Assembly: GCA_026391255.1 (NCBI GenBank)
Contig: JAPLDU010000001.1
Coordinates: 42,901-106,900, forward strand
Reading direction: 5' to 3'
Length of the DNA: 64,000 bases
Source of the DNA: Bacteroidia bacterium
GTDB taxonomy: Bacteria > Bacteroidota > Bacteroidia > Bacteroidales > JAPLDU01
Position numbers and translations under genes: made by a program
The notes under the pieces: model-generated
Told to the model about the DNA's origin: nothing
Database searches by the model: none
What the model saw: the letters and a program-made list of their open reading frames with translations, nothing else
In this document: positions 34,210 through 52,953 of the stretch, piece by piece
How positions within the stretch are numbered: position 1 is the first letter of the stretch
Layout of the letters: each line of letters begins with the position of its first letter

Positions 34210-34629
34210 ATGAGAAGTAAGATTTTATGCCTGGCAATTTTGATAAGTGCATTTACGCTCAATGTTCATGCACAATGCGGTGGTGCAGAACCAGGCACAA
34301 ATAAGCCGACCAGCATTGGCATTGTAATTTATTCAAACGATGCGGAGACTGTCTGGAATGCCATGCGGTTTGCAAATTTCTCGAAGAACCAGGGCGATAC
34401 GGTAAGTATTTTCCTACTTGGAAAAGGAGTGGAATTGGACAACCTGGTGAAGACTGATAAGAATATTAAAGAGCAGACCGATGAATTTACAGAGGCCGGT
34501 GGAACTATACTTGGCTGTGGCACTTGCTTACAAAGCCGTAAAATAAGTGAACCACAGGTATGCAAATTCTCATCTATGAAAGACCTGTATGATATTGTCC
34601 GCAAAAACAAGGTTGTTTTAACATTTTAA
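34210..34629 (+). CDS. Exported DsrE-family protein
   Basis: Signal peptide (AILISAFTLNVHAQ), DsrE core IGIVIYSNDAETVWNAMRFANFSKNQGDTVSIFLLGKGVEL and conserved ILGCGTCLQSR. Confidence 0.82.
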   Translation: MRSKILCLAILISAFTLNVHAQCGGAEPGTNKPTSIGIVIYSNDAETVWNAMRFANFSKNQGDTVSIFLLGKGVELDNLVKTDKNIKEQTDEFTEAGGTILGCGTCLQSRKISEPQVCKFSSMKDLYDIVRKNKVVLTF

Positions 34630-34703
34630 TTTTTATTTTGAATAACATAATCAGATAGGAAATTCAAGTCAATTCATTTAATAAAAAACTAAAAATTACT
34701 GTC

Positions 34704-34916
34704 ATGAAAAAAAACATGGGAAGTGCCGACAAGATAATCAGGTTGGTCATTGCGGCCATTATTGTAATTCTATATATGACCAATGTCATTTCCGGTACAT
34801 TGGGTATTATTTTACTGATACTTGCGGGGATTTTTGTGCTGACAAGTATTATTAATTTTTGTCCCCTTTATACTATTTTCGGACTAAAAACCTGTAAGGA
34901 AAAGTTAGAACAGTAA
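34704..34916 (+). CDS. DUF2892 (YgaP-like membrane) protein
   Basis: KNMGSADKIIRLVIAAIIVILY...INFCPLYTIFGLKTC. Confidence 0.85.
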   Translation: MKKNMGSADKIIRLVIAAIIVILYMTNVISGTLGIILLILAGIFVLTSIINFCPLYTIFGLKTCKEKLEQ

Positions 34917-35241: not shown

Positions 35242-36363
35242 CTAATTATTTGATAAATTCTCCCGGAAGTAATAAAATAATGCCAGTGGTCTGTACACAG
35301 CGTGTGCAAACTTTGAAAATGCAAACAGGAGTACCAGTTCCATTGAAATAATGGTATGCACTAGTAAAATGTAGTGATTTGCAGGATGGTTAAAAGTAAA
35401 AAATACGGATATTTCCATCCAGAAGCCTGTAAATCCTGCTATCCAAAGAAACCATAGGAAAACGTTATCGGCAATATTTGTCTCTGCATAAGACCTTGTG
35501 GCTTTCCTGCTGCGGTAAAGGAGCATCATGCTTGTGCCATAAATCAGAAATAAACCGGCCAGGGTTCCCAATATGCGGGCAGGCCACCAGGTTGTGGTTG
35601 CCGGATCTTTCAACAGAAAATCAAGTAAAGTGGCTGCAAGTAAACCAATAAACCCCCACATCACCGACCAGTGAATAAACCATGGTTTCTGAAAAGCAGG
35701 TTTGTCCTTCCAGTATGAATCTTCTTCCAGGTCGCATGTCCGGTAACGTTTCATGGTGGCTAATTCGCCAAATACTTCTTTCCAAGAACTAAGACAGCTG
35801 TTTTTCTTTGCTTCACCTGATTTATTACTTTTCAGCCTGAGGAACATGTTCAAAAGCCCCCAGATGATTGACATTCCGGTAATAGTGAATATAACCAGTC
35901 CCATGTTATGGATCACAGCGTATGGGATCATTTTAAATATCCACCTCGATACAACATGATCTGGTTTCAGGGTAAAAAGAAAAACCCCGAGTACTAATGC
36001 CATGATTGATGTAAACAGGATGAATAAAAGCTTGTTTTTGAACAATAACTTTGTTAGGCCGGTAGGTTCGTAGCTGGCAATGGCGTAACGATGCAGGGCT
36101 GCCATGTAATTACCGGGTGCGGCCTGCCTTGGGCAGGTTTCGGAACAATCACCGCAGGCATAACACAACCATAATTCTTTGCTTTTGAGGATTTCTTCTT
36201 TTAATCCTAACATACCGTATCGTATGAACATGCGGGGGAAGTTAGCATCATTTGCCGTTAATCCACATATAGCAGTGCAATTGCCACAATTAAAACAAGC
36301 ATTGAAATCGCTGGCTCCGTATTTTGTTATTTCGGATGCAAAACCCGGATCAATTCTGGTCAT
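35242..36363 (-). CDS. QmoC-like: HdrC-type 4Fe-4S domain fused to cytochrome b-type membrane domain
   Basis: N-terminal CFNCGNCTAIC and CYACGDCSETCP; about six hydrophobic helices with His residues C-terminally. Confidence 0.85.
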   Translation of the reverse strand: MTRIDPGFASEITKYGASDFNACFNCGNCTAICGLTANDANFPRMFIRYGMLGLKEEILKSKELWLCYACGDCSETCPRQAAPGNYMAALHRYAIASYEPTGLTKLLFKNKLLFILFTSIMALVLGVFLFTLKPDHVVSRWIFKMIPYAVIHNMGLVIFTITGMSIIWGLLNMFLRLKSNKSGEAKKNSCLSSWKEVFGELATMKRYRTCDLEEDSYWKDKPAFQKPWFIHWSVMWGFIGLLAATLLDFLLKDPATTTWWPARILGTLAGLFLIYGTSMMLLYRSRKATRSYAETNIADNVFLWFLWIAGFTGFWMEISVFFTFNHPANHYILLVHTIISMELVLLFAFSKFAHAVYRPLALFYYFRENLSNN

Positions 36364-38353
36364 GTTGTATATTCTTCAGTCTGTAATAATAATATTCATC
36401 GGAATCATCCATCCCATCAGCCTCAACCAGGCTGTATTTATTCATTGTCATCAGGTGATAAGTCAGGACATTGGCAGGTACATCAAGCTCTTTTACCAAT
36501 GCAGGTATAGTCTTTGATTCCTTCTGCAGAGATGCTGATATTCTTAGCCATAACTGCGGCTGGTCTTTCATTTCAGCCCCGGTAACTGCACTTTGTTCAT
36601 CTTCACTTTCTGCGGATTCTTTGAGTTCGACTTTCTCTGAAAATCCGTCAATCATTCCTTCGATTTCAGCATTCGAATACTGAGCTATGTCAATGGCATC
36701 GTTAGGGCAAACAGGTGCGCAGATACCACAACCCTTACAAACCGCTTCGTTCACTGAGGCAACTGTTTTTCCGTACATTTCCAATGGATGAACAGCGTCG
36801 TATTCACAGACTTCAGCGCATTTTCCGCACCAGACACAGGTATCAAAATTCACTCTTGCAATGACGGGTTCAAGTTGAATAGTAGGATTTTTCGTGAGGG
36901 CATTGATCTTAACTGTTGCAGCCATGGCTGATTGTACCGATTCTGTGATATTCTTCGGTCCCTGGCATGATCCGCCGATGAATACTCCATTGATCACTGT
37001 TTCTACAGGTCTTAACTTTGGATGTATCTCATTAAAAAACTTATCATTTCCGACCGGTATCTTCAGTTTTCCCGCTAATTCCGCTGTATCTTTTCCGGGA
37101 ACCAACCCGGTGACAAGTACCACAAGATCAGTCTCCAGTTCGAGGTCCTGTTTTCTTGTAAGTTCATCCTTCACCTGAATAAGGAGGCGATGCTTTGAAT
37201 TACTCACTTTGGGAGGTATTTTCTCATCAAATTTCAGGTAAATATCCCCGTTCTTTGATGATTGTTCATACAATACTTCCTGTTTCCCATAAGTACGAAT
37301 ATCCCTGTAAAGGTGATATACCAAAACTGATTTGAATTTATTATGAACAAGCAGTGAACTATGGATGGCAGTAGTGCAGCAGACCCTGGAACAATATTTG
37401 TTTTCGCCTTTGGTCTGCCGCATTCCAACACAGTAAATAAAAGCTATGCTGTTTACCTTTTTATTCTGATAATTGAGAGTATCACCGCAGTTATTTAATA
37501 GCTCTCTAAATTCAGGCAGGGTAATTACATTAGAAAGTTCACCATATCCATATTCACCAATAGCCGGCTGGTAATGGTCATATCCGGTGGTGACAAGAAT
37601 AGCTCCCACTTTTAAATTCAGTATTTCATCACTAATTCTGACTTCAACATCGAAATTTCCGAGACTGCCGCTGACCTTACCAATACCGGCATTAGTAAAC
37701 AGGGTGATATTTTTATCGGATTTCACTTTGGTCAACAGTGCGGAAATAATTTCATCACCTGTTTTTCCATCCATAAACATTTCTCCCCAGCGGGCAATGT
37801 GCCCTCCCGGTTTGTATTCCTTTTCGATCAGGTACACCTGGTTTCCCATTTGTGACAAACCTATTGCTGCACGCATACCGGATACGCCTGCACCAATGAC
37901 TACTGCTGCCCTTGTTGAACTGACTTCAATATTTTCAAGCGCTTCAGAATGTGAAACTCTGTTGATACCTGCCAGAATGAGACCTGCTGCTTTCTCACTT
38001 GCTTCTGATGGGGTGTCTGAATGAGCCCATGAACATTGCTCACGTATATTCACCTGGGTATAATTGTAAGGATTTAATCCGGCTCTTATTGCCACATTGC
38101 GGAAAGTATGCAGGTGAAGTTTAGGAGAGCAGGAAGCAACAACAATACCATCAAGCTTTTGATCAACAATATCATTGACCATTTCCTTCTGGTTTGAATC
38201 GGCACAGGCAAACATCACATTCTTTGCGACCACAACCCCGTCCAGTCCTTTCACAATATCTTTTATCTGTGATACATCCACATAGTCGGAGATATTTCCC
38301 CCGCAATGACAGATGTACACTCCTATCCGTTGTTTTTTCTCCATGAAACTCAA
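36350..38353 (-). CDS. HdrA/QmoA-like iron-sulfur flavoprotein with C-terminal ferredoxin and winged-helix-like extension
   Basis: VYICHCGGNI, VIGAGVSGMRAAIGLSQMG, YCSRVCCTTAI, CVWCGKCAEVCEYDAV, CKGCGICAPVCPNDAI. Confidence 0.88.
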   Translation of the reverse strand: MSFMEKKQRIGVYICHCGGNISDYVDVSQIKDIVKGLDGVVVAKNVMFACADSNQKEMVNDIVDQKLDGIVVASCSPKLHLHTFRNVAIRAGLNPYNYTQVNIREQCSWAHSDTPSEASEKAAGLILAGINRVSHSEALENIEVSSTRAAVVIGAGVSGMRAAIGLSQMGNQVYLIEKEYKPGGHIARWGEMFMDGKTGDEIISALLTKVKSDKNITLFTNAGIGKVSGSLGNFDVEVRISDEILNLKVGAILVTTGYDHYQPAIGEYGYGELSNVITLPEFRELLNNCGDTLNYQNKKVNSIAFIYCVGMRQTKGENKYCSRVCCTTAIHSSLLVHNKFKSVLVYHLYRDIRTYGKQEVLYEQSSKNGDIYLKFDEKIPPKVSNSKHRLLIQVKDELTRKQDLELETDLVVLVTGLVPGKDTAELAGKLKIPVGNDKFFNEIHPKLRPVETVINGVFIGGSCQGPKNITESVQSAMAATVKINALTKNPTIQLEPVIARVNFDTCVWCGKCAEVCEYDAVHPLEMYGKTVASVNEAVCKGCGICAPVCPNDAIDIAQYSNAEIEGMIDGFSEKVELKESAESEDEQSAVTGAEMKDQPQLWLRISASLQKESKTIPALVKELDVPANVLTYHLMTMNKYSLVEADGMDDSDEYYYYRLKNIQHDQN

Positions 38354-38541: not shown

Positions 38542-41292
38542 TCAAATTCTTTCATTCAGGTAACCGGCCACTTCTGAGGCAGCACATCCTGCTGACAATA
38601 TCGAATCGGGAATATCCATTGGTGCTGCAGCAGTTCCGGCAACAAACACTCCATCGACCGATGTTCTGGCCGGGCTTGTCATTACATCTATCTGGCGTAT
38701 GAAACTAAACTGGTCAAGTTCCGGCTGATTGTCACCGAAGGCCTGTACAATTTTATTATCAGGCAAAACACCTACAGACAAGACTACCAGGTCGTGAACC
38801 ACTTCTTTTACCTGGCCGGTCTCAATATTCTCATATCTCAGGATAAGGTCTCCGCTTTTATCGTCCTTTTCCTTAATCCTTGCAACCTTACCTTTGATAA
38901 AATTTACTCCCATAGATTTCGACTGCTGGAAGAATTCTTCGTATCCTTTTCCGAAAGCCCTGATATCGATGTAATAAATGGTAATATCGGCCATGGGCAA
39001 GGCACCCATTAACAATTGTGCCTGTTTGATAGAATACATACAGCAAATCTGTGAGCAAATGGGGTTGTTGGCACTGGCCATGCTGCAGGAGCGGTAATTT
39101 TCAAGGCTTGAATCACGTGATCCGGTACAAAGCACATAAGCTATATTTCCCGGTATCTTTCCATCACCCGGTCGCAGGACATTATTAAATGGCCTGGTCG
39201 GAGCAATGAGACGGTCCATCTGCAGTGAATCGATTACGTTGGGATAGATGGCAGAGCCGTACTGAGGTTTAGATTCAGGATTAAACAAATTGAATCCAGT
39301 TGAAATGATTACTGAACGGGCGTTTGCAGAAATGCTCTCTTCCTTTTGTGAGAAATCAATGGCATCGGCCGGACAGGCAGAAATGCACTGATGACACTCA
39401 CGGCAGTTGCTGCAATCAAGACACCTGTTTGTACTCTGCCTGACCTCGTCTTTAGTGAATGTCAGTTCCACATCCTCGAAATCCCTGATCCTTTCTGAAA
39501 CAGGACGCATTTTTTCTTTCAGTCCGGGAAGCAATAAAATATCTTTACGTTCCAGTATCTTGTTTTTATCAACCGGAGCAAGCTTATCGCCAAATTCATA
39601 CTCTCCGGGATTTTTACCTTCCAGAAATTTGTTCATATAAAAAGCGGCCCTCTTTCCTTGCCCAATAGCTTCAATGATGGTTGACGGGCCTGTCACCGAA
39701 TCACCTCCTGCGAATATCCATGATGTGTTTGTTTGTAAAGTTTTATCATTTACTTTTATGGCTCCGTCTTTGCCCAGTGTCAGTTCTCTGCCGAACACCG
39801 ATGTTGTCGGATACAGACCAATGGCTTCAATGACGAAATCAACATCAACCGAATATTCCGAACCTTCAATGGAAACTGGTCTTCTGCGCCCGCTTTCGTC
39901 TTTATCACCAAGTTTCATCCTGATTAGCTCAGCTTTAACTACATTACCGTTTTCGCCTATAAATCGTACAGGGTTACTCAATTCATTAATTTTGACACCT
40001 TCTTCCTCAGCCTCATGAATCTCTGCTTTCCAGGCCGGCATTTCATTTCTGCTCCTGCGGTAAACAATGTTCACTTCTTTTGCGCCGAGCCTGATGGCAG
40101 TGCGAGATGCATCCATGGCTGTATTACCTCCACCTATTACCATGACCTTTTTACCTTCCAGGCTGATCTTATTCCCTATCTTTGATTCACGCAGAAAATC
40201 AAGGCATGAAACAATTCCTTGTAGTTCTGAGCCTTCCACATTCATCTTACTTGTTTCGTGAGTACCCACAGAGACAAACACGGTATCAAATCCAGCATTT
40301 TTAAGAGTTTCAAGATTTTCAACCTTGTGGTTCACTTCATATTCAACACCCAGCGACAATATGTTCATAATATCCCTGTCGACAATGGCTTTTGGAAGCC
40401 GGTATTCGGGAAGGGTAAGCTTCAGCATGCCACCAAGTTCGGAAGCTGCTTCAAATAATTTAACCTGGTGTCCGGCCAGTGCAAGAAAATAGGCTGCTGT
40501 GAGCCCTGCAGGCCCTGATCCCACCACGGCAGCTTTTTTGCCTGATTTCTTTTCAATTGAAATGGCAGGAGGAACAGGGTATTTTGTATAGTAATCTTCA
40601 GCAAAGAATCTCTTTATCCTGCGTATATCAACTGATGCTTCAAGGCTTGCACGTGTACACTCACTTTGGCAGGGAGCATAGCATGCACGGCCCAGACTGC
40701 CTGGTAATGGAGCATCCTCAAGGTGAAGCATCATGGCATCTTCATATTGTCCGTTCCTGACTAATGAAATATAGCCATATGGCTTTATACCTCCGGGACA
40801 GGCTGCGATACATGGCGCAGATGAATCCTGCCTGTCAATGACTGCAATACGGGGGTTTGCCAGGCTGAATGGTATATAGGCCACTTTTCGGCCTGCCAGG
40901 TAACGGTTGTATTCATCTGGTCTGACTTCAGGGCATGCCTGCTCACATTCCTGGCAGCCGGTACATGCTTCAGGGATAACATACCTGGGACGCTTATTGA
41001 TATTAATGCTGAACTCTCCGTTATTTTTCCTGATGCTCTTAATATCACTGTTCAGAAGCACAGTAATATTCGGATGTCTTGCTGTCTCTGACATCTTTGG
41101 AGTTGTGATGCAGGCAGCACAATCGAGAGTAGGAAATACCTTGCTTAACTGAATCATTTTCCCGCCAATGGAAAGTTCTTTATCAACCAAGAGAACTTTA
41201 TAATCCATATTGGCCAGGTTGAGCGCCGCTTCCTGCCCGGCAATCCCTCCGCCAATAACCAATGTGTCGAATGTCTGATTGTTATTTGTCAT
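38542..41292 (-). CDS. HdrA/QmoB-like flavoprotein with inserted GltD/NfnB-like FAD-NAD(P) oxidoreductase module
   Basis: N-terminal IGGGIAGQEAALNLA and CTGCQECEQACP; internal AAVVGSGPAGLTAAYFLALAGHQVKLFEA and VMVIGGGNTAMDASRTAIRLGAKEVNIVYRRSRNEMPA; C-terminal HdrA half CRECHQCISACPADAI, ICSQICCMYSIKQA. Confidence 0.88.
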   Translation of the reverse strand: MTNNNQTFDTLVIGGGIAGQEAALNLANMDYKVLLVDKELSIGGKMIQLSKVFPTLDCAACITTPKMSETARHPNITVLLNSDIKSIRKNNGEFSININKRPRYVIPEACTGCQECEQACPEVRPDEYNRYLAGRKVAYIPFSLANPRIAVIDRQDSSAPCIAACPGGIKPYGYISLVRNGQYEDAMMLHLEDAPLPGSLGRACYAPCQSECTRASLEASVDIRRIKRFFAEDYYTKYPVPPAISIEKKSGKKAAVVGSGPAGLTAAYFLALAGHQVKLFEAASELGGMLKLTLPEYRLPKAIVDRDIMNILSLGVEYEVNHKVENLETLKNAGFDTVFVSVGTHETSKMNVEGSELQGIVSCLDFLRESKIGNKISLEGKKVMVIGGGNTAMDASRTAIRLGAKEVNIVYRRSRNEMPAWKAEIHEAEEEGVKINELSNPVRFIGENGNVVKAELIRMKLGDKDESGRRRPVSIEGSEYSVDVDFVIEAIGLYPTTSVFGRELTLGKDGAIKVNDKTLQTNTSWIFAGGDSVTGPSTIIEAIGQGKRAAFYMNKFLEGKNPGEYEFGDKLAPVDKNKILERKDILLLPGLKEKMRPVSERIRDFEDVELTFTKDEVRQSTNRCLDCSNCRECHQCISACPADAIDFSQKEESISANARSVIISTGFNLFNPESKPQYGSAIYPNVIDSLQMDRLIAPTRPFNNVLRPGDGKIPGNIAYVLCTGSRDSSLENYRSCSMASANNPICSQICCMYSIKQAQLLMGALPMADITIYYIDIRAFGKGYEEFFQQSKSMGVNFIKGKVARIKEKDDKSGDLILRYENIETGQVKEVVHDLVVLSVGVLPDNKIVQAFGDNQPELDQFSFIRQIDVMTSPARTSVDGVFVAGTAAAPMDIPDSILSAGCAASEVAGYLNERI

Positions 41293-41687
41293 TCCAGTTC
41301 AGCTAATATCCTGGTAAAATTGGCCATATGGCTGGCAAACGGCTCAGCACAAACTGAACAGATCGCTGCCATCCTGATACGTTTCGGGCTGATATTTGCC
41401 TCCTTCATTAACCGCTGTGATTCCTCAATGATCATGTTGGTATATTCTGGACACTTAGAGCTGTAGGAACACTCATGCCCATCAGCAGCAATGAATACCC
41501 CATCGAAACCCTGGTTGAAAGCATGCATGATCCAGCGAGGTTTGATGCCTGAAGAACAAGGCAGACTTATCACATAAACAGAAGGTGAGTAATGGATTTT
41601 TCTCAATCCTGCCTGGTCAATGCCCGGATCAGAAATTTTATCAGTTGAAAATACCAGTATCCTTGGTCTGGTATGTTGATTTCCCAT
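41289..41687 (-). CDS. MvhD/FrhD-like delta subunit
   Basis: PRILVFSTDK...YVISLPCSSGIKPRWIMHAFNQGFDGVFIAADGHECSYSSKCPEYT; 4-nt overlap with the HdrA-like gene. Confidence 0.83.
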   Translation of the reverse strand: MGNQHTRPRILVFSTDKISDPGIDQAGLRKIHYSPSVYVISLPCSSGIKPRWIMHAFNQGFDGVFIAADGHECSYSSKCPEYTNMIIEESQRLMKEANISPKRIRMAAICSVCAEPFASHMANFTRILAELE

Positions 41688-41851: not shown

Positions 41852-42103
41852 TCAGGCTTTTTTCAGGAAAAGTCTTGAATAACTGTCTTCTTCAATGATT
41901 CCGAGGAATTCATGTGTCATTTTCTGACACCATTTCGGAATGTCATTTTTGGTTCCTTCATCTGATGAATAAATCTCCATGATCTCACCTGATCCGATTT
42001 CCCCAATTCCTTTTTTTGCGGCCAGCAGTGGTCCGGGACAGGCTGTTCCTCTTGCATCAACAATTGTAGCTGGTTTTATTCCTTTTAATTCTTCTGTAGT
42101 CAT
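41852..42103 (-). CDS. tusA: TusA-family sulfur carrier protein
   Basis: IVDARGTACPGPLLAAKKGIGEIGSGEIMEIYSSDEGTKNDIPKWCQKMTHEFLG. Confidence 0.9.
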   Translation of the reverse strand: MTTEELKGIKPATIVDARGTACPGPLLAAKKGIGEIGSGEIMEIYSSDEGTKNDIPKWCQKMTHEFLGIIEEDSYSRLFLKKA

Positions 42104-42114
42104 TGTATGTTATT

Positions 42115-42666
42115 TTAAATGAATAATTGTATTTTACTTTCCTGAGCATCTGCAAGGAATGTTGCCACGCCACAAACTGTTAAACCGGGGTAATCAATCA
42201 TTTCTTCCTTTTTGAATCCCATCAGGTTCATCGACATCTCGCATATATTGATCACAACCCCAAGTTCACCGGCTGTTTTAATCATTTCAGGGAGAGATGC
42301 AACCTTGTGTTTTTTCATGATGCCTTTGATCATGGATGTTCCCATACCGCACATGTTCATTTTCGAGAGTTTTACCTTTCTGCTTCCTTTGGGAAGCATC
42401 ATTCCAAACATCTTTTCCACCAGATTTTTCCCTTTCCCGCTTTTTTCAGGATCACGCAAAGCTGAAGTAGCCCAGAATGTGAAGAATAGTTTGACTGTCA
42501 TATCATAAGCTGCGGCACCTGTCGCAATAATCATTGCAGCAAGAATTTTATCCAGGTCGCCGGAAAATACTACCATTGATAGCTGATCCTTTGTACCGGT
42601 TTCAATCTTATATACTTTGGAAGTCAATTCCATCAACTGCCTTTCAAAATCAGGGGTCATAGTCAT
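42115..42666 (-). CDS. DsrE2-like (DsrE/DsrF/DrsH-like) protein
   Basis: VVFSGDLDKILAAMIIATGAAAYDMTVKLFFTFW..., MNMCGMGTSMIKGIMKKH, CEMSMNLMGFKKEE. Confidence 0.85.
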   Translation of the reverse strand: MTMTPDFERQLMELTSKVYKIETGTKDQLSMVVFSGDLDKILAAMIIATGAAAYDMTVKLFFTFWATSALRDPEKSGKGKNLVEKMFGMMLPKGSRKVKLSKMNMCGMGTSMIKGIMKKHKVASLPEMIKTAGELGVVINICEMSMNLMGFKKEEMIDYPGLTVCGVATFLADAQESKIQLFI

Positions 42667-44095: not shown

Positions 44096-45394
44096 TCAGA
44101 AATTAGTTTTATGGGGAATAATAGCTTCCGCTACTATTTCGGCCATGGTCATCAATTTTATTCCAAGTTTATAATAAATGTTAACCTGTGTAAGCTGGTC
44201 GATACAATTGTGGCATGGAGTCACGACAATTTTGGCTCCTGTTTGCCTTATCTGTTCAGCTTTTATTACGGCTGCTTTCATCCGTCGCTCATTGAACTCG
44301 CTCATGGCAAGCTGACCGCCGCCTCCTCCACAGCAGAAATTATCAATTCCGTGAGGCTCCATTTCTATAAATTGTTTTACGAACTGTTTCAGAATATATC
44401 TTTGCTCGTTAATTACACCACCATTTCTAACCAGGTTACACGGGTCGTGAATCGTAACCGGTACTTTAATTTTATCAGGGTCGAGATTTATACGGCCTTT
44501 GCGGATATAATCAGCAATGCACTCAACCGAACTTATCACTTTGAACGGAAATTGCTGCTTAAGGTAATTCGGAGCCTCCCAGCGAAATGCCCTTGTACCA
44601 TGTCCGCATTCTGCAAGCACCAGCGTGTTGCAATCAAGATGTTTCATTTCTTTTCGCAACCGTTCTGCAATAATAGCTGCCTCTTTGTTGTTACCTGAAA
44701 AATATGCATAATTGGTCACATCGTACATTTCTGATGACAATGTCCAGCTTTCGCCGGCGAAATAAAATATTTTTGCCATTGCTGAAATCGACAACGGATA
44801 AAATTTGGGTTCCCTTGGATTAAGTGTATACAAAATTTCTTTTCGTTTTTCATTAACCGGAATACGTGAAAGGGGATCACCTGTCTCATCCATCAGTTCC
44901 TCTTCCATCCATTTAATAGTATCAAGAAATTCTGTTAAAGGGATACTCATATTATTTCCGCTTTCCAGCGCTGCATTCACCGTCGATTGCAATGTTGCAG
45001 GAACAAAGCCCATTTCGGAAAGCATTGTCCTTCCCAGGCGGACAAGGTATGGTACATCAACACCGGTTGAGCAATGCATAGAACATCTGCCGCACATGGT
45101 ACAAGCTCCAAAGAGCAGATCGGTCATCTCTGATGCAAATTCGCCGTTCAGTTCTCTTGCATTTACCAGCTTTGGAAACACTTTTCCCTGCCATGTGCAG
45201 TAACGCCTGTATACAGATGTTACAAGATCGGCTTTCCTGCCTGGCATGAACCGCTCATCTTTTGTGGCCAGATAAAAAAAACAGCTTTCCGCACAAAGAC
45301 CACAGTGCACACAACTGTTCATATTTGTAATCATCCTGCTGTCTGGATGATTATTAAATATCCCGGGTTTTATTTTTGGTGTATTTCCCTGCAT
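44096..45394 (-). CDS. DsrK/HdrD-like Fe-S oxidoreductase
   Basis: CVHCGLCAESC, CTMCGRCSMHC; CCG-type motifs HDPCNLVRNGG and NFCCGGGGGQLAM...VTPCHNCIDQL. Confidence 0.87.
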   Translation of the reverse strand: MQGNTPKIKPGIFNNHPDSRMITNMNSCVHCGLCAESCFFYLATKDERFMPGRKADLVTSVYRRYCTWQGKVFPKLVNARELNGEFASEMTDLLFGACTMCGRCSMHCSTGVDVPYLVRLGRTMLSEMGFVPATLQSTVNAALESGNNMSIPLTEFLDTIKWMEEELMDETGDPLSRIPVNEKRKEILYTLNPREPKFYPLSISAMAKIFYFAGESWTLSSEMYDVTNYAYFSGNNKEAAIIAERLRKEMKHLDCNTLVLAECGHGTRAFRWEAPNYLKQQFPFKVISSVECIADYIRKGRINLDPDKIKVPVTIHDPCNLVRNGGVINEQRYILKQFVKQFIEMEPHGIDNFCCGGGGGQLAMSEFNERRMKAAVIKAEQIRQTGAKIVVTPCHNCIDQLTQVNIYYKLGIKLMTMAEIVAEAIIPHKTNF

Positions 45395-45410: not shown

Positions 45411-46055
45411 TTATTTTTCGTTTACCGGTGGCCATACTCCGCGTCTTCCAAAGAAAAGCCCGAGATGATAACGGGCTGCAAAGAAATATACGGCATGTTT
45501 AAGCTTTCCTACCGGAAAATAAAGGAAAAGCAAACCTGAAACAATGAAATATGTAAAGTATGCAGATGAAAAATTAAGTACAATGACTGTTGTTACCTGA
45601 AAACCTGTAACAAGGATATTGGAAATGTAATCATCAGGATTTGATAATTTGCGCATCCTGGAATTGGTCATCCTTTTTATCAGAATTCCGATTCCACACA
45701 GGGCAGACGAGACCAGCACAATTGATGTAATAAAAATAACAGGTTCTGAAGGTGATAACTGCAGCCAGATGAAAGGGAAAAAAATAAGCGACAGGAATGT
45801 TCCGGCATGATAGATAATGCCTGCGGCATATGTTGGGAGATGCAAAAATGCTGTTTCTTTTCTTGCCGGGTTCATTGATGAAGTATAGGCGTACCTGATA
45901 CTTTCAGAAATGTTGCCGGCTGGTACTGAAAAGTCCTCAGGACGGCCAGGAGTAACAAGCCGGATTATCAACCGAAGGCAGGTTATACAGGCTAACACAG
46001 GCGGAATTATTGCAACCCAGTAATACCATTTCATAGCACGGATAGTTAAACGCAA
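45411..46055 (-). CDS. DsrM-like cytochrome b-type membrane subunit
   Basis: Hydrophobic helices with His (IIYHAGTFLSLIFFPF; KLKHAVYFFAARYHLGLFFGRRGVWPP) and position next to DsrK/DsrC. Confidence 0.78.
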   Translation of the reverse strand: MRLTIRAMKWYYWVAIIPPVLACITCLRLIIRLVTPGRPEDFSVPAGNISESIRYAYTSSMNPARKETAFLHLPTYAAGIIYHAGTFLSLIFFPFIWLQLSPSEPVIFITSIVLVSSALCGIGILIKRMTNSRMRKLSNPDDYISNILVTGFQVTTVIVLNFSSAYFTYFIVSGLLFLYFPVGKLKHAVYFFAARYHLGLFFGRRGVWPPVNEK

Positions 46056-46363
46056 CCGTCAGGTTTAGGTAATCCTGCGACGCGGCATGCCCCGCGGGCA
46101 GGGCCAAGAGGAAATAACTCATATATCTCACGGAGTTTTAGTCCTGTTTGCTGGCAGATTACACGTATCATAGGCGCCATTCCTGTTTCTTCCCAACTTT
46201 TACGAATGATTCTGACAATTGCCCAATGTTTTTCATTTAATTCGGTAATGCCGTCGTATCCGGCAAATAACCGTGCTACTTCATCATTCCAAATGTCAGG
46301 CGTAAGTAAGAAACCATCACCATCAATCTCAAAATTTCTACCTTCAATTTCAATGCTTGGCAT
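46046..46363 (-). CDS. dsrC: DsrC-family sulfur carrier protein with both C-terminal cysteines
   Basis: EIDGDGFLLTPDIWNDEVARLFA..., C-terminus FPLGPARGACRVAGLPKPDGCV. Confidence 0.9.
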   Translation of the reverse strand: MPSIEIEGRNFEIDGDGFLLTPDIWNDEVARLFAGYDGITELNEKHWAIVRIIRKSWEETGMAPMIRVICQQTGLKLREIYELFPLGPARGACRVAGLPKPDGCV

Positions 46364-46374
46364 AATTCGTTATT

Positions 46375-47862
46375 TTATAAAATAAACCATGATTCAACTT
46401 GTATCGATGATCTGTCTTTTCTTTTATTAACAAATTCATTGGTTCGCCTGTCATATTCATAATCCCTGCCCCATTCATCATAATGATTCCGTATCTGCCT
46501 GATTGCATCGATAATGTAAATCACATCTGTATCAGACATAGTCGGGTGAAGCGAAATTCTAACCCATCCCGGCTTTTCTGACAGGTCGCCAGCATTTATC
46601 TTACCTGTGATTTTTCGTGATTTTTCATAGCTGACATCAAGCAGGTAATGTCCGTATGTTCCGGCACATGCACATCCGCCCCTTGACTGAATTCCAAACC
46701 GGTCACTCAGTGACTTAACGATCAGGTTATAATGGATACCGGGAATATAAAATGAGATAACACCAAGACGGTCTTTAATATGATCAGCAAGTATATGAAT
46801 ATCAGGTACTGATTGCAATTCCCTGAAAGCAATATTAACCAGTTGATCTTCCCTTTCATGAATTTTTGAAGTATTCATTTTGTTTTTTAAATCAATACAC
46901 AGGGCTGTCTTGATTGCTTGCAGAAAACCAGGGGTACCGCCGTCTTCACGAATCTCAATATTATCAATGAATTTATATTCACCCCAGCGATTAGTCCAGT
47001 CAACTGTGCCGCCCCCCGGTTGGTCAGGTGATTTGTTATTGTATAGTTCTGAATCAAAGATAAGAACTCCTGATGCCCCGGGACCACCCAAAAATTTATG
47101 TGGTGAAAAGAAGATGGCATCAAGTTTTTCCCGTGGGTCATCCGGATGCATATTAATATCATCATATGGAGCTGAGGCAGCAAAGTCAATAAAAGCAAGG
47201 CCTCCGTATTCATGCATCAAGCGGGCCATTTCATGATAGGGAGTACGAATACCTGTAACATTTGAACAAGCGGAGAATGATCCGATCTTACGCTTCCTGT
47301 CTTTGAATTTTTTCAGTGCATCTTCCAGTTTGTTCAGATCAACAAGCATATCTTCTCCTGGCTCGACTACCACCACATCTGCGGATGTCTCGTACCAGGT
47401 GGTCTGATTGGAGTGATGTTCCATATGAGTGACGAATATCACAGGTTTTTCTGTTTCCCTGAGACATTTACTGTGTAATATATCTCCGCAAAGTTTTAAT
47501 CCGAGGATTCTCTGAAATTTAACTACAGCTCCTGTCATGCCAAATCCGGTCGTCAGGATAACATCATCAGCGTTGGCATTTACATGTTCTTTAATCTTTT
47601 TATGGGCAAGATGGTAGGCCTGTGTCATCAGCTTCCCGGTTTCACTGGTTTCAGTGTGTGTGTTACCGATGAATGGACCGATATGTTCAGTGATCATTTC
47701 TTCAATAGGCCTGTATAAACGACCACTTGCAATCCAGTCGGCATAGACCATTTTCACCCTGCCATATGGAGTCTGGTAATACTGGTCAATACCAATGATA
47801 TTATTGCGAAATGTACTGAAGTATTGCTCTGAATGGACTATTTCTTTGTCTGTAAGGAACAT
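46375..47862 (-). CDS. Class V aminotransferase / cysteine desulfurase-like protein
   Basis: VILTTGFGMTGA, FIDFAASAPYDD, FFSPHKFLGGPGASG (PLP Lys), SRGGCACAGTYGHYLL. Confidence 0.85.
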   Translation of the reverse strand: MFLTDKEIVHSEQYFSTFRNNIIGIDQYYQTPYGRVKMVYADWIASGRLYRPIEEMITEHIGPFIGNTHTETSETGKLMTQAYHLAHKKIKEHVNANADDVILTTGFGMTGAVVKFQRILGLKLCGDILHSKCLRETEKPVIFVTHMEHHSNQTTWYETSADVVVVEPGEDMLVDLNKLEDALKKFKDRKRKIGSFSACSNVTGIRTPYHEMARLMHEYGGLAFIDFAASAPYDDINMHPDDPREKLDAIFFSPHKFLGGPGASGVLIFDSELYNNKSPDQPGGGTVDWTNRWGEYKFIDNIEIREDGGTPGFLQAIKTALCIDLKNKMNTSKIHEREDQLVNIAFRELQSVPDIHILADHIKDRLGVISFYIPGIHYNLIVKSLSDRFGIQSRGGCACAGTYGHYLLDVSYEKSRKITGKINAGDLSEKPGWVRISLHPTMSDTDVIYIIDAIRQIRNHYDEWGRDYEYDRRTNEFVNKRKDRSSIQVESWFIL

Positions 47863-47939: not shown

Positions 47940-48269
47940 CTAAGGGCAACAGCAATAATTTGATTCCCTGTGAAGATATTCTGCCAGAAAATGAATGACA
48001 GCCTTAGTAATGATCTGATCATCAGAATTTATGATCTCTTTATTTTTTAAATTTAACTGCTGGCGGTATTTATCTTCAATTTCCTTTACTAAAATCCCAT
48101 CGCAATCAGTTATGTTATCATCTGAAATCCCGGGGTTTCCTGAAATGTTCCAGCGTAACTGCTGCTCAGTGATCTCACCTGATTTGATTGTAAGGATGAG
48201 AAACCCTTTGGCAGACCCAAAGTTGCGTGTCATCATCAACCCATCATCAGTCGGAATGGCTAATTTCAT
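47940..48269 (-). CDS. NifX/NifB-like (dinitrogenase FeMo-cofactor) domain protein
   Basis: MKLAIPTDDGLMMTRNFGSAKGFLILTIKSGEI...DCDGILV; start chosen at MKLAIP rather than 48410. Confidence 0.75.
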   Translation of the reverse strand: MKLAIPTDDGLMMTRNFGSAKGFLILTIKSGEITEQQLRWNISGNPGISDDNITDCDGILVKEIEDKYRQQLNLKNKEIINSDDQIITKAVIHFLAEYLHRESNYCCCP

Positions 48270-48437
48270 ATATTTCAGATTATTGGTTAATAAACAAATA
48301 TCACTTTTACAAAAGTACTCAGTAATAGTGCTGTAGGAGGTAAAGGAAATGTGATTATAACTATAATAGGTTGTGAGAGATGACCTGATATTATATACGT
48401 AAATACACATACATATATGACTATGTAATTAATAAAT

Positions 48438-48475: not shown

Positions 48476-49204
48476 ATGATTACTTTTGCAACAACAAAAA
48501 CTCCGATGTTTGAATTTGAGAATAAAAAGACAACGTGTCCTGATTGTAAGGATAAATCCTGTGCAGCTGCCATCCTGAGCAGGGAAGAGCTTGAAATGAT
48601 CAACTTTAACAGCCATGAGAGTGTGGTCAAGAAAGGAGAAATCATCCTTCATGAAGGTTCTCTGACTTCTCATATTATATACCTGAAGAGCGGGCTTGCC
48701 AAGGAGTTTGTAAAACCCACACCTGAGTCAGAGCAGATACTGTCCATCGTAAAAGAACATACCTATTTAGGTTTGTCCTCTTTATTTGGTGACAGGATCA
48801 ATCACTATTCCTATTCGGCACTGGAAGATGTAAAGGTGTGCTATATTGATATTGCAGTTTTTATCAATCTGGTCAGGAAGAACGGAAATTTTGCATATGA
48901 AATATTGGTATCGGTGAGTCGTGACAGCCTGAACAATTTTCACAGGTTTATCAATCAACTGCATAAAAAGATTTATGGTCGTGTAGCTGATGGGATTCTG
49001 TATTTCTCCAGGATCATTTACGAAAATACCACCTTCTCCCTTCCCATGTCAAGGCAGGAATTTGCTGATCTGATTGGTGTATCGAGGGAAAGCGCCACCA
49101 GGGTGCTCATTAAATTCAAGGATGAGGGGATCATCAATATTAAAGGCCACCTGATTGAAATAAACAAGGTGGAATTACTCGAACAGATCAGCAGGAAAGG
49201 TTGA
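48476..49204 (+). CDS. Crp/Fnr-family regulator with Fnr-like cysteines
   Basis: cNMP-fold and HTH MSRQEFADLIGVSRESATRVLIKFKDEG; N-terminal CPDCKDKSC and central VCYI. True start may be ATG 48506. Confidence 0.9.
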   Translation: MITFATTKTPMFEFENKKTTCPDCKDKSCAAAILSREELEMINFNSHESVVKKGEIILHEGSLTSHIIYLKSGLAKEFVKPTPESEQILSIVKEHTYLGLSSLFGDRINHYSYSALEDVKVCYIDIAVFINLVRKNGNFAYEILVSVSRDSLNNFHRFINQLHKKIYGRVADGILYFSRIIYENTTFSLPMSRQEFADLIGVSRESATRVLIKFKDEGIINIKGHLIEINKVELLEQISRKG

Positions 49205-51898: not shown

Positions 51899-52285
51899 TT
51901 AATGGTTGCATTGCTGGCCGTTGCCCTGACCATGATGTTCCTGATGAAGGGAACAACTTTCACCGCTATCAGAAATCCTGCCTTCAATAAACTGTTTTAC
52001 AAGGTCGGCGGCATTTCCGGAGCAGCCCCGAATTACCTGAATGCCCCATTGATTTAGTACATTGATTGCACCGCCACCAATGCCACCGGCAAGCATCGTT
52101 GTAACTCCCTGTTCAGATAAAACACCTGCAATATTTGACTTGCATCCGCAACCCTGTTCAGATTTTAAAAATTGAACATCGACTATTTCATTTTTTTCTG
52201 AGATGGTATAAACTCCGTAAAATTCACAATGACCAAAATGGTCGTCTACCTGGTTACCTCTGGTAACTGGAATTGCTATTTTCAT
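51899..52285 (-). CDS. NifX/NifB-like (dinitrogenase FeMo-cofactor) domain protein
   Basis: MKIAIPVTRGNQVDDHFGHCEFYGVYTI...GCGCKSNIAGVLSEQGVTTMLAGGIGGGAINVLNQWGIQVIRGCSGNA; start chosen at MKIAIPV. Confidence 0.88.
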   Translation of the reverse strand: MKIAIPVTRGNQVDDHFGHCEFYGVYTISEKNEIVDVQFLKSEQGCGCKSNIAGVLSEQGVTTMLAGGIGGGAINVLNQWGIQVIRGCSGNAADLVKQFIEGRISDSGESCSLHQEHHGQGNGQQCNH

Positions 52286-52311
52286 ATTATTTAAATTATT
52301 GATTAGTAACA

Positions 52312-52953
52312 TTATTTATCAAAAATACCTGAAGGTACTGCATTTGCAGTTACCAGAAATACAGGAAATTCTTTTTCATTTCCGCTATTCCCGGGTCTTT
52401 TAATTACAAAACAAGGTTTCAGATTAATATTATGAAATCCTGTCAGTTCAAGAAGATGAACTAAACTGTAAGGATCAAAACCATGATGACCCGTAAAATC
52501 AGCATCATGAAACGATCCGTCTTCTTTGTATAGATCAGCAATAGCCAAATGTCCGCCAGGGTTTAATAAATGATAAAACTTCAAAAACATTTTCTCAATG
52601 TTGTCAACGTGATGAAGAGCCATTTGGGAGAAAATATAATCGAACTTTTTTCCCGGGTATTCATCCTTTTCTAAATCAAAAAGAAGAGGATGAAGATGAT
52701 CAATTCCGTTTTTGGCAAGTTTTTCCCTTGCAGTTTTGATCATCTCAACTGAACTATCCATCAGGATTATCTCAGAAAAATAGTCCTTAAGTGTGAAGCT
52801 AAGCAGACCTGTGCCTGATCCAATTTCCAATGCGGTTTTCTGCACATCTAATTCACCTCTGGCTATCAGCTCTTTTGCAATTGCTTCAGTCCTATCGAGG
52901 TGCATCTGGTTTTTGTCCCAATCCCCGGCAACCTGGTCAAAATGGTTTGCCAT
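52312..52953 (-). CDS. Class I SAM-dependent methyltransferase
   Basis: ALEIGSGTGLLSFTLKDYFSEIILMDSSVEMI; FDYIFSQMALHHV. Confidence 0.9.
   Translation of the reverse strand: MANHFDQVAGDWDKNQMHLDRTEAIAKELIARGELDVQKTALEIGSGTGLLSFTLKDYFSEIILMDSSVEMIKTAREKLAKNGIDHLHPLLFDLEKDEYPGKKFDYIFSQMALHHVDNIEKMFLKFYHLLNPGGHLAIADLYKEDGSFHDADFTGHHGFDPYSLVHLLELTGFHNINLKPCFVIKRPGNSGNEKEFPVFLVTANAVPSGIFDK

Follow-up and report, generated by a model that had tools for sequence, protein, structure and literature searches.

Many Bacteroidota, a cultured gut genus among them, encode a DsrC-family sulfur carrier which has both C-terminal cysteines in the absence of a sulfite reductase and which is encoded with a DsrM/DsrK-like pair of proteins (the M/K pair) and a dedicated cysteine desulfurase, a combination that suggests an undescribed handling of cysteine sulfur with release of H2S. 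The DNA studied is a stretch of 64,000 nt, referred to below as the window, from the Bacteroidia bacterium assembly GCA_026391255.1 (contig JAPLDU010000001.1), which represents a Bacteroidales genome of 4.08 Mb that is 97.5% complete and contains a single DsrC. The genes of the locus (Table 1) follow one another on the minus strand in the order SufS-like, DsrC, DsrM-like, DsrK-like, desulfurase, DsrE2, TusA, MvhD/FlpD, HdrA-GltD, HdrA2/QmoB-like and QmoC-like. The intergenic gaps are short inside sub-blocks, but because gaps of 107-188 nt separate some of the sub-blocks, the arrangement does not demonstrate a single transcript.

Table 1. Features of the DsrC locus, in window coordinates
Feature	Position	Strand	Basis or remark
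Crp/FNR-family regulator, divergent	48476..49204	+	kept upstream of extended locus in relatives
Second class-V (SufS-like) PLP enzyme, directly upstream of DsrC in extended locus form	46375..47862	-	profiles
DsrC-family sulfur carrier, 105 aa, ATG start; C93, penultimate C104, clade-specific C70	46046..46363	-	profiles, alignment, structure model
DsrM/HmcE/TmcC-like membrane protein	45411..46034	-	probable ATG 46034, TTG 46055 possible
DsrK/HmcF/TmcB-like iron-sulfur protein, two 4Fe-4S motifs and CX34CCX38CXXC	44096..45394	-	profiles, alignment
Class-V cysteine desulfurase, PLP lysine K203, catalytic C341	42774..43946	-	TIGR01977, over cut-off
DsrE2-family sulfur carrier	42115..42666	-	profile, alignment
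TusA sulfur carrier, invariant Cys22 (CPGP)	41852..42103	-	profile, alignment
MvhD/FlpD-like electron-transfer subunit	41289..41687	-	profiles
HdrA split by inserted GltD/NfnB-like NAD(P)H flavoprotein domain, QmoA-like position, 916 aa	38542..41292	-	profiles
HdrA2/QmoB-like flavin and Fe-S subunit	36350..38353	-	profiles
QmoC-like Fe-S and membrane cytochrome b subunit	35242..36363	-	188.9 bits against QmoC model NF038018, below cut-off of 300

The DsrC protein exceeds the cut-offs of both family profiles in a profile search (112 bits against PF04358, cut-off 24.9; 94.8 bits against TIGR03342, cut-off 53.5) and remains below that of the TusE model PRK11508 (62.8 bits, cut-off 191). Its C-terminal end, ACRVAGLPKPDGCV, contains C93 and C104 spaced by ten residues, a spacing identical to that of Cys100 and Cys111 in A. 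vinosum DsrC (PMC3397948). Both cysteines are invariant in 90/90 sequences of the type defined below as type A, the window's included, so the pair is not a product of chance, and the claim of the first-pass annotation that both redox cysteines are kept at the C-terminus is borne out. The third cysteine of these proteins, C70, is also invariant (90/90), and none of the 13 reference sequences has it, S, T or V standing in its place. An AlphaFold2 model of the window's protein (mean pLDDT 92, from a 35-sequence alignment without the E. coli row) finds its best matches among solved structures in the DsrC subunits of sulfate reducers, with TM-scores of 0.86-0.87 and 44-48% identity, and in the alignment the type A proteins lack the loop insertion of the TusE, A. 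vinosum and Chlorobia proteins.

A profile search of the window's whole genome gave no match to DsrA, using a model which also weakly detects other sulfite reductases, so that the occurrence of a two-cysteine DsrC without DsrAB, first remarked on from the window, holds at the level of the genome. DsrA was likewise found in 0/25 tested genomes with a type A DsrC, a set that took in the window's genome, a Butyricimonas isolate and the complete chromosome of Bacteroidales bacterium CF, whereas the Chlorobia controls gave matches; these 25 genomes, one of them complete, rule out an assembly gap as the cause of the absence. The second DsrC cysteine has been described as confined to organisms with DsrAB, the exceptions being Methylococcaceae, Marinobacter and Lawsonia (PMC3397948), and the passages on DsrC in PMC7380581 add Ca. 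Methanomixophus as a further holder of a two-cysteine DsrC without dsrAB. The type A proteins constitute a large clade which is a clear exception to this published rule.

In a survey of 99 genomes of the order, one per family, a DsrC-family match was found in 29, and reading of the loci split these into two types. Type A, with both cysteines, is present in 10 genomes, of which the window's is one, and is nearly always accompanied by DsrM/K-like genes and the desulfurase. In type B, C93 is replaced by S, T or A in 23/23 sequences, and in many Bacteroidales (L040-L058 and others) the gene lies in a cluster of SQR-like, DUF1641-like, DsrC and DsrE2 genes beside a Crp-family regulator, the SQR and DUF1641 names being a reading of the sequences and not a profile match; with its single cysteine, type B may be of the RspA kind. 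The two types adjoin each other in loci L068, L092, L093 and L121.

An unrooted tree of the family (62 sequences, 105 columns), which does not fix the root or the finer order, contains three sets: type B with support of 100/100, the references (sulfate reducers, sulfur oxidisers and E. coli TusE) with 91/95, and type A with 97/88 when the divergent L031 is left out. Type A is not placed with TusE in this tree, yet an AU test does not reject a tree that joins it to E. coli TusE (p 0.24), and the case against TusE therefore rests on residues, indel and gene linkage rather than on the tree. It is the presence of C93 and the absence of the E. coli-type loop that rule out a TusE identity for the window's protein, and across type A these two features speak for DsrC-like chemistry. 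The DsrC of L067, a record titled Ignavibacteriales, is 81% identical to the window's protein and nested among Bacteroidales, through either transfer or a binning error.

Gene linkage was read in the best 80 of 337 relatives from a species-level genome scan; these 80 are mostly Bacteroidota, the remainder being records titled Ignavibacteria, and among them are Butyricimonas sp. Marseille-P3923 and Bacteroidales bacterium CF, the latter with a complete genome. Within these 80, a DsrM-like gene is linked to the type A DsrC in 76/77 testable loci (those with sufficient sequence beyond DsrC) and a DsrK-like gene in 70/70, and in the order survey DsrK orthologs (E < 1e-30) occur in 9/99 genomes, all of which have type A, the one type A exception being G072. 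The true-DsrC reading of the first-pass annotation had been set against two findings taken together, placement with TusE or RspA and lack of conserved dsrMK linkage in relatives: the linkage proves strong, and the protein falls in a clade of its own, but the TusE grouping stands unrejected.

The same annotation had identified the adjoining genes as DsrM and DsrK, the established redox partner of DsrC, and here the conserved pair is upheld while the names are not. The K protein scores 256 bits against the DsrK equivalog model NF045796 (cut-off 400; Chlorobia DsrK 704-718), and its scores against HmcF (312, E 5e-93) and TmcB (275) are higher than its DsrK score but far under the cut-offs of both models; the M protein scores 19.5 bits against the DsrM equivalog model NF038037 (cut-off 300) and 29.1 against HmcE. 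The curated DsrM and DsrK cut-offs rule out full DsrM/DsrK identity, and the term "DsrMK-like" describes an architecture and not equivalog identity. Members of the HdrD/DsrK/HmcF/TmcB superfamily have two 4Fe-4S motifs and a C-Xn-CC-Xn-CXXC catalytic motif, and the K protein, which also matches the HmcF model, has both elements: its pair of 4Fe-4S motifs and a CX34CCX38CXXC motif like that of the HdrD/DsrK disulfide reductases are 99-100% conserved in 70 sequences. In the M protein, heme may be bound by two conserved histidines, H83 and H187 (counted from the TTG). The reported overlap of 10 nt between the DsrC and DsrM-like genes hinges on a TTG start at 46055, whereas the in-frame ATG at 46034 leaves a gap of 11 nt; most relatives have a gap of 9-19 nt, which favours the latter and makes the overlap doubtful.

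The most faithful partner of the type A DsrC is a gene that was overlooked in the first reading, the class-V cysteine desulfurase. This protein scores 449.5 bits against TIGR01977 (cut-off 377), and K203 and C341 are invariant in 62/62 sequences. It is adjacent to the type A module in 59/59 testable loci from the best 80 of 337 relatives, on the same strand in 58 and on the opposite strand in 1, and close orthologs (63-74% identity) occur among the 99 order genomes in exactly the 10 that have type A, the next-best matches in the survey being only 38-42% identical. The probability of such a coincidence of profiles by chance is approximately 6e-14 if genomes are treated as independent, which they are not strictly, being related though from different families. 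The co-occurrence also survives where the remainder of the module is dispersed or incomplete, and it is for this reason that the desulfurase is ranked first: the assembly of G001 is fragmented, with the DsrC, DsrK and desulfurase genes on separate contigs, and in G072 (L033) the type A DsrC is followed directly by the desulfurase, while a DsrK ortholog was not found in the genome.

The window's extended gene arrangement is shared by loci L062, L063, L065, L068, L073, L076, L077 and L092. Directly upstream of DsrC, 36/77 loci have a small protein of approximately 80 aa with five invariant cysteines (e.g. L035:9541-9795), which was not found in the window, where the SufS-like gene takes its place. 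The HdrA/GltD protein, whose insert spans approximately 155-560, stands beside QmoB- and QmoC-like genes despite the absence of AprA from the genome. Beyond the QmoC-like end, at 34210-34916 on the plus strand, lie a DsrE-family protein with a signal-peptide-like start and then a YgaP-like transmembrane protein. A block of two Crp-family regulators, a thioredoxin-reductase-like gene and a thioredoxin-like gene is flanked by two small ORFs (47940-48410 and 51899-52312) whose similarity is of the MrpORP or NifX type.

We tentatively favour, with somewhat less than even confidence, a DsrC thiol-redox module that is supplied by the cysteine desulfurase in place of DsrAB. From the gene content we infer its substrate, the transfer of sulfur to DsrC, the release of H2S, the direction of the reaction and the quinone coupling as follows. 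The desulfurase would convert L-cysteine to alanine, leaving a persulfide on its Cys341. DsrC would receive this sulfur on its penultimate Cys104, straight from the desulfurase in the core module and, in the window's locus, perhaps with TusA and DsrE2 as relays. Attack on the DsrC persulfide by Cys93 would then free H2S and leave a C93-C104 disulfide, which would be reduced at the special 4Fe-4S site of the DsrK-like subunit, the DsrM-like membrane subunit supplying electrons drawn from menaquinol; the net reaction would be cysteine + menaquinol -> alanine + H2S + menaquinone. The disulfide step is drawn from the scheme for A. vinosum DsrC, in which the penultimate cysteine alone binds sulfur and release by formation of an inter-cysteine disulfide has been proposed (PMC3397948), with the desulfurase as the donor. 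Trisulfide cycling, which the first-pass annotation linked to the cysteine pair, is unsupported in its known form, since in the known cycle DsrAB, absent here, is needed to make the trisulfide.

In favour of the desulfurase-fed module are the gene linkage and co-occurrence, the conserved catalytic residues, the invariant C93 and C104 and the lack of DsrA described above, together with the absence of the type B cluster's SQR-like gene from the window's genome and most relatives tested. The window's locus also contains homologs of parts of the E. coli sulfur relay, which runs from IscS to TusA, TusBCD and TusE (PMC3397948). Two genes of the MqnA/MqnD family in the window's genome (futalosine route) are consistent with a menaquinone route; a search of this genome for MenD gave no match, and MqnA/D were not found in the relatives G001, G034, G072, G040, G046 and G074. 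Against the module count this lack of MqnA/D in several relatives, the lack of any documented persulfide transfer from a desulfurase to DsrC without an intermediary in the literature searched, the fact that gene adjacency gives no direction of reaction, and the absence of a DsrK ortholog from G072. The larger proposal, that the DsrK-like complex cycles desulfurase-loaded DsrC in a DsrAB-independent, quinol-linked reduction of cysteine sulfur ("cysteine respiration") which conserves energy and gives off H2S in many Bacteroidota, gut Butyricimonas included, is doubtful.

The locus could instead operate in the oxidative direction, with sulfide or persulfide sulfur on DsrC being oxidised to the disulfide/trisulfide level, electrons passing from DsrK/M to menaquinone, and the Qmo-like and HdrA/GltD proteins passing electrons onward. 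TusA and DsrE2 are present in the window, and the extended locus adjoins the SQR-DUF1641 cluster in the four loci where types A and B meet; AprA, moreover, is over its cut-off in two Bacteroidales genomes without DsrA (G097 and G318) and split in a third (G074). This direction is nevertheless unlikely, because the SQR of the type B cluster is absent from the window's genome and most relatives tested, AprA is absent from the window's genome, most tested core-module genomes lack both, and DsrC has a cysteine desulfurase, not an oxidising enzyme, as its obligate partner. A biosynthetic relay, in which a TusE-like carrier would supply tRNA, cofactors or Fe-S clusters with sulfur from cysteine and the M/K pair would be a repair reductase, gains from the way in which the desulfurase, TusA, DsrE2 and DsrC mirror the E. 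coli Tus chain (PMC3397948), and from the unrejected TusE grouping; it is quite unlikely in view of a distribution (10/99 order families) that is too patchy for core thiolation, the retention of C93, which TusE lacks, and the constant linkage to a membrane disulfide-reductase-like pair. That the PLP enzyme uses selenocysteine or cysteine sulfinate, and that selenium or sulfite-level sulfur is what the module processes, is improbable: the desulfurase also matches the selenocysteine lyase model SclA, but its 344 bits there are under the cut-off of 525, whereas that of TIGR01977 is exceeded, and the genome has no match to the DsrA model with its weak reach to other sulfite reductases. Finally, most of the genomes are draft MAGs, but that DsrAB was missed through incomplete assembly, or that the locus is what remains of a Dsr pathway since lost, is scarcely credible given the 0/25 result for DsrA with the complete CF genome and the Butyricimonas isolate among those tested, the restriction of full-scoring DsrK to Chlorobia, and a conservation of residues that speaks against decay.

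If the desulfurase-fed model is true, it describes a sulfide-producing route that is invisible to dsrAB or asr markers, and it can be tested directly in cultured members that carry the module, namely Butyricimonas and Bacteroidales bacterium CF. No description of a DsrC-desulfurase-M/K module was found in the literature searched, a search that left subscription journals mostly outside its range. Such a module would escape two published surveys because of how their genomes were selected, the 2023 study of Dsr protein evolution being based on organisms with DsrABCMK (PMC10504309) and the FEMS survey on genomes carrying dsrAB (PMC10591310).

Among known systems, the DsrC of the sulfate reducers D. 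vulgaris, D. norvegicum and D. gigas is like type A in its fold, in both cysteines of the C-terminal arm and in the absence of a loop insertion ahead of the last helices, but type A differs in the lack of DsrAB, the extra invariant C70, a clade of its own and a fixed desulfurase neighbour. The type B protein of the same order shares the family fold and the penultimate cysteine, and differs in residue 93, in its separate clade and in its neighbours. The two-cysteine DsrC of Ca. Methanomixophus likewise occurs without dsrAB, but it is archaeal, its role is called unclear, and the passages that deal with it report no desulfurase/M/K module (PMC7380581). The M/K pair has the composition of DsrMK, HmcEF and TmcCB, a membrane subunit with an Fe-S protein bearing a CCG-type catalytic motif, but its K protein scores far under the cut-offs for all three counterparts, and JOP subunits were not seen near the pair. 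Compared with the E. coli Tus relay (IscS-TusA-TusBCD-TusE), the extended locus has an equivalent desulfurase, TusA, and DsrE-type and DsrC-type carriers, whereas its carrier arm has two cysteines where that of TusE has one, the core module lacks TusA and DsrE2, and the chain ends at a disulfide-reductase-like pair.
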